A stretch of 6,499 nt of DNA from Candidatus Latescibacterota bacterium (GTDB lineage Bacteria; JAAXHH01; JACQVL01), in assembly GCA_016209865.1 (NCBI GenBank), contig JACQVL010000321.1, positions 1-6,499 of the forward strand, given 5' to 3'. The notes under the pieces were generated by a model. It ran no database searches. It saw only the letters and a program-made list of their open reading frames with translations, and was not told the origin of the DNA. Of this stretch, positions 4,426 to 6,499 are shown in pieces; the first letter of the stretch is position 1, and each line of letters opens with the position of its first letter. A program made the translations under genes and the position numbers.

Positions 4426-4525
4426 AGGTCCCAAGTTCCAGGTCTCAGGTCCCAAGTCGAAAAACAAGGGGCGGACTAATAAAGAGCATGTATCCGGTGT
4501 TTGACCTGGGACTTGAGACCTGGAA
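4426..4525. repeat. Long inverted repeat made of AGGTCCCAAGT words, possible terminator
   Basis: Directly after the binding-protein stop codon, AGGTCCCAAGT occurs at 4426-4436 and again at 4447-4457, a 21-bp period. Bases 4436-4458 are then mirrored by 4503-4525: 21 of 23 positions pair, and the two exceptions are one G-U pair and one A-C mismatch. The loop is 44 nt. As RNA this would form a strong stem after the gene, followed by a weak T-rich stretch (TTGCTTTTG, 4526-4534), so it could end or protect the transcript. The wordy GGTCCC/GACCTGGGAC composition also resembles dispersed intergenic repeats of many bacterial genomes, which cannot be tested in a single window. Confidence 0.65.
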
Positions 4526-4570: not shown

Positions 4571-4610
4571 GTGTGGAATTTTCTCACAATTGTCTGAAAT
4601 TTTATCACAC
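4571..4610. promoter_or_regulatory. Imperfect operator-like dyad centred on ACAATTGT
   Basis: An 8-bp palindrome ACAATTGT (4586-4593) lies inside TTC..ACAATTGT..GAA (4581-4598), and the block is bounded by GTGTG (4571-4575) and CACAC (4606-4610), one base off symmetry. Nearby, TTGTCTGAA (4590-4598) recurs inverted as TTCAGACAA (4673-4681), and TTCTCACAA (4581-4589) is nearly inverted as TTGTGAGAGAA (4661-4671). Such nested dyads in an AT-rich spacer can be repressor sites, but no promoter is firmly placed here, so this is a weak suggestion. Confidence 0.25.
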
Positions 4611-4763
4611 GGCTGATGTAATTGTGCATCAAACACTTCATTGTATTCTGGTGTGCGACCTTGTGAGAGAAATTCAGACAAGATAGCCCTCATACGGCTC
4701 ACACACGGGGTCTGATCGTATTTCATTATTGCCGGTTTTTCATCATCTCGCACCGTGCCTTCT

Positions 4764-4992: not shown

Positions 4993-6499
4993 ATGAGCGC
5001 CGGTTTCGTTTTTATCTCTCATGCCAGCAAGGATGATGACTTTGTTCAAAAACTGCGTCTTACCCTCGAAAGCCGGCGGATCAGCGTGTGGGTGGATTCC
5101 CGGAACCTGCGCGGCGGCGCTAAACTGGCATCGGAAATCGAGCAAGCGATCCAACAGGCGCGGCAGGTCGTGGTGGTACTCAGTCTCCATACCATCAATT
5201 CTCCCTGGGTCCGCAAAGAGATTCAGAAGGCTCAACAGGTGGAGCAGCAGCGTAAGGCTGAGGGGTACCGGGTGATCCCACTTCTCTTGCCCGGGGTCGA
5301 GCCCGCAGCCCTGGCCTCGTGGTTTGACGAAGAACCTGTCGCTGTGCCCATCCGGTTGAACCCCGGTGGCCTGGATGAGGCGTTGCCTGCGATCCTCGCC
5401 GCACTGGGGGAGCGCCTTCCTACCGACGCCCAACCGTTGCAGACCGTTGAGACGAAGCCCGTCGAAGAACTCATGCTGGAATTAAGCGACCCCCAAATCC
5501 AGAGCCATGAAGGCAAGCGTCGGGGCACAGCCACCGCCACTCTGGTCTATGAACCCGCCGATCGGACGGCTCGGAGGGTGGAAAGCACGCGCTTTCGCTT
5601 TACTGCACCACTCGGTCCTATCGAAGCCGAAGACCTGCGCTGGTATCTGGAGGGCTACTATCTCTGGCCGACGGGGGTCTTTAAGGAGCGTGCTGAGCGC
5701 ATCGAGGCCCAACTGCCGCACTGGGGCCAGGAGTTGTACCAGGCCGCGTTGGCCACCCCGGCCGCCCAGGACGCTCTGACGATCTGGCAACAGACCGCAG
5801 GCGGTGCAGAGCGCCGGTTCTCTGTGCTGGTCGATAGTGATTTGCCCGACGGGACGAGTCAGGAAGAACGGACTGCCGCCCGTGAGGCCGCCAGCGATTT
5901 GCTGGCTTTGCCGTGGGAACTCCTGCACGATGGGCGGGGCTATCTGTTTCAGGGCAGGCATGCCGTCCGGGTCCGTCGCCGGTTGCCCAATCGCCGTCCA
6001 CAACCCGTGGCCGTGACCGATTTACCCATCCGCATCTTACTGGTCAGTCCCCGGCCTGAAGACGAACAGACTGGCTACCTCGACCACCGCAGCAGTGCTT
6101 TGCCCCTGGTGGAGGCGGTAGAGAGCCTGGGGGAACTGGCGACCCTCACCGTACTCACCCCGCCGACTTTCCCCGCTTTGCAAGAAGTCCTGCAACGGGC
6201 TGCGGACGAGGAGCAGCCGTTTGATGTGGTGCATTTCGACGGTCACGGGGTGTATGACCGTGAACACGGACTGGGTGTGCTGTGCTTTGAAGACCCGAAC
6301 AACGCGCAGAAATTGCACAACCGGGCGATGATCCCGGTGCATGCCGAAAAATTAGCCGGCGTGATGCGCGATTACCGCATTCCGCTGGTCTTTCTGGACG
6401 CCTGTCAGACCGCCACCACGGAGGACGACCCTACCGCCTCCGTTGCCGCCCGGCTGTTGGACGAGGGGGTCACGTCCGTGGTAGCCATGAGCCACAGCG
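4993..6499 (+). CDS. TIR-CHAT fusion protein, probable immune or cell-death effector, 3' end cut
   Basis: My translation from 4993 is open for 502 codons to the window edge. Residues 4-100 form a TIR domain: FVFISHASKDDDF (box 1), VWVDSRNLRGG (box 2), the helix ASEIEQAIQQA, VVVVLS and SPWVRKEI (box 3). Residues 105-155 look like a linker. Residues 160-350 are a pre-domain with WYLEGYYLWPTGVF and LLALPWELLHDGRGYLF. From about 346 comes the CHAT protease (caspase/separase fold, clan CD): VVHFDGHGVY puts the catalytic His at 418 and LVFLDACQTA the nucleophile at Cys471, followed by SVAARLLDEGVTSVVAM. Both dyad residues are intact, so an active cysteine protease is expected. TIR domains act as NAD-cleaving enzymes or as signalling adaptors; CHAT proteases act in bacterial immunity, for example the Csx29 partner of type III-E CRISPR. 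A role in defence or programmed death is inferred, not shown. There is no signal peptide or membrane segment. Any C-terminal sensor or repeats lie beyond the window. Confidence 0.92.
   Translation, partial: MSAGFVFISHASKDDDFVQKLRLTLESRRISVWVDSRNLRGGAKLASEIEQAIQQARQVVVVLSLHTINSPWVRKEIQKAQQVEQQRKAEGYRVIPLLLPGVEPAALASWFDEEPVAVPIRLNPGGLDEALPAILAALGERLPTDAQPLQTVETKPVEELMLELSDPQIQSHEGKRRGTATATLVYEPADRTARRVESTRFRFTAPLGPIEAEDLRWYLEGYYLWPTGVFKERAERIEAQLPHWGQELYQAALATPAAQDALTIWQQTAGGAERRFSVLVDSDLPDGTSQEERTAAREAASDLLALPWELLHDGRGYLFQGRHAVRVRRRLPNRRPQPVAVTDLPIRILLVSPRPEDEQTGYLDHRSSALPLVEAVESLGELATLTVLTPPTFPALQEVLQRAADEEQPFDVVHFDGHGVYDREHGLGVLCFEDPNNAQKLHNRAMIPVHAEKLAGVMRDYRIPLVFLDACQTATTEDDPTASVAARLLDEGVTSVVAMSHS

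Follow-up and report, generated by a model that had tools for sequence, protein, structure and literature searches.

The window analysed here, 6,499 nucleotides long, is an entire contig (C284) of a Candidatus Latescibacterota genome of 3.75 Mb in 356 contigs (83% complete), and its 3′ end holds the start of a gene whose frame is still open where the contig stops (Table 1). The cut-off ORF corresponds to roughly the front third of a large receptor protein. Its product matches Pfam TIR_2 at aa 6–105 (E 1e-24, 87.6 bits against a cut-off of 28) and Pfam CHAT at aa 302–499 (E 5e-15, 56.2 bits against a cut-off of 24), which bears out the proposal of an earlier note on this DNA that one chain holds a CHAT protease together with a complete TIR domain. 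However, CHAT is incomplete in the window, because the match covers only profile positions 34–229 of 289; with the same profile (PF12770), relatives reach E values up to 2e-26. Glu76 fits the predicted position of a catalytic glutamate of the SARM1 E642 type (WxxxE). The predicted His418/Cys471 dyad is intact, as that note had read it, both residues being invariant in 65 aligned rows and also in plasmid relatives that lack TIR and are about 30% identical. Across 56 full-length relatives, Glu76, Asp416, His418 and Cys471 are all invariant (56/56).

Table 1. Features of the receptor gene in the window and on contig C154.
Feature	Position	Strand	Details
TIR-CHAT-STAND-TPR gene, 5′ part	4993..6499	+	ATG at 4993; 502 codons; contig end reached with frame open
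TIR domain, PF13676 match aa 6–105	5008..5307	+	Pfam TIR_2; modelled TIR fold ~aa 2–143
Glu76, predicted NADase glutamate, NSPWVRKE motif	5218..5220	+	Invariant in 56/56 full-length relatives and 65 aligned rows
Beta/alpha linker and pre-CHAT region, aa 152–300	5446..5892	+	Alignment, AF2 model; partly common to TIR-less CHAT-TPR proteins
CHAT caspase-like protease domain, N-terminal two thirds, aa 302–499	5896..6489	+	PF12770, E 5e-15
His418, predicted catalytic histidine, HFDGHG	6244..6246	+	Invariant
Cys471, predicted catalytic cysteine, LDACQT	6403..6405	+	Invariant
47-nt contig end overlapping end of C154	6453..6499	+	91% identical; 4 synonymous differences
Likely rest of gene: CHAT end, STAND NTPase, TPR	L003:17096-19999 (C154)	-	ORF of 967 aa

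The AF2 model of the window protein, built with 64 relatives, has a mean pLDDT of 84.7 and a pTM of 0.60 and is weakest at linker residues 149–151 (pLDDT <50). In the model, strand 412–415 enters the His motif and strand 465–468 enters the Cys motif, as would be expected for the caspase-like protease pattern. The modelled TIR domain resembles the TIRs of SPARTA TIR-APAZ (Z 18.6), SARM1 (Z 16.1) and AbTir (15.8), and the matches listed for the window model in a PDB fold search are TIR structures. The CHAT profile also finds 8tl0, a CHAT protein of solved structure (E 0.008), and puts the His and the Cys of the two in register. Profile and secondary structure are thus the two levels at which the analysis addressed the counter-sign named in the earlier note, a missing CHAT fold or a displaced His/Cys pair.

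Two inverted repeats lie elsewhere in the window. The longer, at 4436–4525 after a solute-binding protein gene, is imperfect, with 26-nt arms that are 88% complementary; its core 19-mer occurs only once in the genome, and an interspersed repeat was rejected. The other, at 4590–4681 in the gap upstream of the receptor gene, has 23-nt arms that are 83% complementary.

The missing 3′ part very likely, though not provably, continues on contig C154, the join not being letter-exact. The overlap encodes LLDEGVTSVVAMSHS on both contigs, and the C154 ORF contains by profile search the remainder of CHAT, a STAND NTPase (AAA_22, NB-ARC and NACHT matches) and TPRs. The genome offers no other good match to the overlap and holds the C154 part only once; its only TIR_2 match and its two CHAT pieces are those of the window and of C154. 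Single ORFs of relatives match both halves at nearly the same identity, L022 at 67.5 and 66.2% and L023 at 64.7 and 64.7%. The two contigs could instead carry pieces of different proteins brought together by an assembly artefact, the window protein having no STAND-TPR part; four mismatches within 47 nt and a GC content of 62% in one ORF part against 59% in the other would fit this, but every difference in the overlap is synonymous, no further piece of either half exists in the genome, and relatives of sufficient length run on from CHAT into STAND. We regard such an artefact as very improbable. The four mismatches suggest that strain variants were assembled, paralogues being rated less likely, and the joined protein is likely to be a single polypeptide of about 1455 aa in the order TIR, linker, CHAT, STAND ATPase, TPR. 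The sensor or NTPase that the earlier note thought might lie in the unseen downstream region thus does exist, but as C-terminal parts of the same protein.

Two genes after this likely remainder, behind a weakly DUF445-like gene, C154 encodes a SLATT_2 membrane protein (L003:15242-16093, minus strand; E 5e-34), the sole one in the genome. SLATT proteins are predicted pore-type effectors in bacterial conflict systems. The SLATT_2 and DUF445-like genes were rejected as conserved partners, no blastp match being found near 80 relatives.

C154 and its relatives show the characters of AP-ATPase/NLR-type STAND proteins, namely P-loop, Walker B, sensor 1, a CED-4-like fold and repeats; P-loop K145, Walker-B D223 and sensor-1 R267 (C154 numbering) are invariant (56/56). 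The STAND-TPR part of L022, modelled with a pLDDT of 88.4, matches CED-4 with Z 26.0 over 340 residues, NRC4 with Z 24.7, RPP1 with Z 21.3 and the TPRs of LGN with Z 30.2, and its top Foldseek match is the bacterial STAND-TPR protein 6mfv (E 5.5e-14).

Scanning 84,980 species genomes returned at least 80 loci, spread over at least 12 phyla, including Pseudomonadota, Cyanobacteriota, Planctomycetota, Chloroflexota, Acidobacteriota, Actinomycetota, Myxococcota and Chlorobiota; all are TIR-linker-CHAT and 44–69% identical, and this shared order rules out that TIR and CHAT were joined in the window by chance or as a chimera. TIR, CHAT, STAND and TPR lie within one ORF in the 56 full-length relatives, complete ORFs are mostly 1437–1590 aa, and both relatives that were profile-scanned along their whole length have the order TIR_2, CHAT, AAA_16/NB-ARC, TPR. 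No PADLOC or NCBIfam profile matches the protein over its whole length. Among matches in phage and plasmid records there were only TIR-less CHAT proteins, about 30% identical. Mean pairwise identity among the full-length relatives is 62% for CHAT, 52% for the NBD, 51% for the TPRs and 46% for TIR. Distances in TIR correlate with those in CHAT (Mantel r 0.78, 199 permutations), which is what one old fusion inherited, and travelling, as a unit would give.

In the tree, phyla are intermixed, with nine changes needed for Pseudomonadota, five for Planctomycetota and four for Acidobacteriota, counts to be read with the caveat that bins may hold stray contigs and that paralogues can split groups; for these reasons we call horizontal transfer likely, not proven. 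The window sequence groups with one KSB1, two proteobacterial and one acidobacterial sequence. The gene was not found in 15 other genomes of the same order, and among 384 sampled genomes it occurs in its own genome only, which marks it as rare and sporadic. Taken together, the gene is sporadic, stands alone and has probably moved horizontally. Filamentous or mycelial growth prevails among the cultured, named hosts of the relatives listed, as in Thiothrix, Leucothrix, Nodosilinea, Stenomitos, Leptolyngbya and Actinoplanes, a predominance that stands without a control comparison.

Six relatives (L035, L057, L058, L086, L097, L099) are split into two ORFs by a frameshift or stop, which may represent decay, assembly error or inactivation. 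Leucothrix pacifica, an Aminicenantes and a Chlorobiaceae bin each have two diverged receptor copies (the pairs being L039+L053, L033+L065 and L069+L079).

Apart from a Nodosilinea-type cyanobacterial synteny and common superfamilies, no gene recurs beside the relatives; there is no conserved operon, and the strands of neighbouring genes are near random. The conserved housekeeping context that the earlier note had named as counting against defence is not what we found: the surroundings are variable, mostly of ordinary metabolism, with scattered defence-type genes (DpdF, PsyrT, methyltransferases, toxin-antitoxin) counted without a control set. This content neither proves nor excludes a defence role. 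The same note had also suggested a downstream gasdermin or toxin as substrate, and the 25 commonest neighbour families contain no such recurrent gene. As far as can be read from sequence, the receptor would act alone.

The TPR region (L003:17096-19999, minus strand, aa 591–885, and its relatives) is as conserved as the ATPase, which is odd for a pathogen sensor. This conservation suggests a constant ligand, and since fast-changing phage sensors behave differently, a host factor may serve as trigger.

We consider it probable that this protein is a single-chain, NLR/apoptosome-like immune or cell-death receptor, in which assembly through the STAND ATPase activates two enzymes, the TIR as NADase and the CHAT as protease. 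Observed in its favor are the domain order, the conservation of the predicted active sites, the fold class of the TIR and STAND-TPR parts and the sporadic spread. From these we infer assembly, both enzyme activities, trigger, substrate, order of events and outcome, along the following lines. At rest the receptor would be a closed, nucleotide-bound monomer. Its TPR arm would bind the trigger, probably a conserved molecule linked to invader or damage, upon which the STAND module would swap its nucleotide and build a ring like those of CED-4 and plant resistosomes. The ring would bring the N-terminal domains together, TIRs pairing into an active NADase, and the CHAT domains, activated in turn, could cut either a substrate in trans or, within their own chain, the linker. 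Loss of NAD+ and proteolysis would then amount to abortive infection or programmed cell death. The suggestion that the TIR domain drives assembly by itself has lost ground: the NTPase and the sensor belong to the same protein, making the STAND ATPase the more likely driver.

Three other readings of function draw on the same data. Many TIR domains are adaptors, and here TIR could be a non-enzymatic assembly domain that aids clustering, leaving the CHAT protease as sole effector. CHAT is indeed the most conserved domain by mean pairwise identity (62% vs 46% for TIR), and TIR-less CHAT-STAND/TPR relatives exist; however, a pure adaptor need not retain the WVxxE glutamate, which is kept in 56/56, and NADases (SPARTA, SARM1 and AbTir) are among the nearest TIR folds, so we think this unlikely. 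Caspase-like proteases often self-process, and the low model confidence of the TIR/pre-CHAT linker means that it could be exposed, which would suit a two-step zymogen whose CHAT cuts the linker in cis and whose freed TIR or TIR-CHAT would then work at a distance from the receptor. We found no cleavage site in the linker, though, and TIR NADases are normally active only while clustered; we hold this to be rather improbable.

The remaining alternative is a STAND-type regulator of the AfsR/MalT kind, serving development, secondary metabolism or kin recognition rather than antiphage defence. It would explain the similarity of the TPR part to AfsR and MalT-like TPRs, a sensor that is not hypervariable, the filamentous habit of most cultured hosts and the lack of a clear defence island, but no DNA-binding domain was found, the distribution is sporadic across phyla, and both effector domains of the protein are of kinds usual in immunity and cell death. 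We doubt this reading.

If the preferred reading of a dual-effector receptor is true, one bacterial protein holds two eukaryotic death machines in compact form. To a further-reaching possibility we give somewhat less than an even chance: that the family is an undescribed and widespread kind of bacterial apoptosome, in which one ring activates two different killing enzymes at the same time, the TIR as NADase and the CHAT as caspase-like protease, and a single chain combines the effector principles of plant TIR-NLRs with those of animal apoptosomes. With two effectors on one receptor, their order (together, or protease first) becomes testable. Thiothrix fructosivorans, Leucothrix, Nodosilinea nodulosa and Actinoplanes are cultured hosts with genes of about 1450 codons and no conserved partner genes, so that a one-gene transfer is possible.

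In the literature searched, with most subscription journals outside its coverage, we found neither the ordered chain TIR-CHAT-STAND-TPR nor TIR-CHAT, CHAT-TIR, CHAT-STAND or CHAT-NACHT fusions; STAND, TIR and caspase fusions have been discussed broadly (PMC8195603). In the Thiohalocapsa DGR 2 target, CHAT and TIR are reported in one predicted conflict protein (PMC10907252), but that is a C-lectin target diversified by a retroelement, for which a STAND-TPR module is not described. CHAT also occurs in Borvo (PMC10952713), and the match to BovA (E 0.005) extends over part of CHAT only. Craspase TPR-CHAT of type III-E CRISPR (PMC9729208) shares the CHAT His-Cys dyad, the TPRs and the principle of a regulated sensor that activates the protease; however, it is activated by gRAMP-crRNA, has separate genes and neither TIR nor STAND, and its TPRs precede CHAT, an order absent here, where the TPRs are C-terminal of CHAT. 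Fungal CHAT-bearing NLRs (PMC10197012) and bacterial CHAT-STAND/TPR proteins (Nostoc BAY35406.1) have CHAT fused to an NTPase and/or TPRs. Neither group carries a TIR. The bacterial ones are homologous to the window protein in the pre-CHAT and CHAT region at about 30% identity; the genes of the fungal proteases often sit in a cluster with one for a gasdermin, a pairing not seen among the 25 commonest neighbour families here. With the CED-4/CED-3 apoptosome the receptor shares the STAND fold (Z 26) and the notion of a caspase-like protease turned on by an ATPase ring, whereas here the protease is fused rather than recruited, a TIR is added and the sensor is made of TPRs. Bacterial and plant TIR-NLRs (PADLOC TIR-NLR; RPP1, ROQ1) likewise have an N-terminal TIR with a catalytic-type Glu, a CED-4/NLR-type STAND ATPase and a C-terminal repeat sensor. 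In that class the STAND receptor has TIR directly at its N terminus as its one effector, whereas here a second effector, the CHAT protease, stands between TIR and STAND and the sensor is TPR; the match to the PADLOC TIR-NLR model is weak and confined to TIR. The component domains are each already known from immunity and cell death, and the exact family, apparently uncharacterised, is best seen as a variant of the STAND receptor with two enzymatic effectors.
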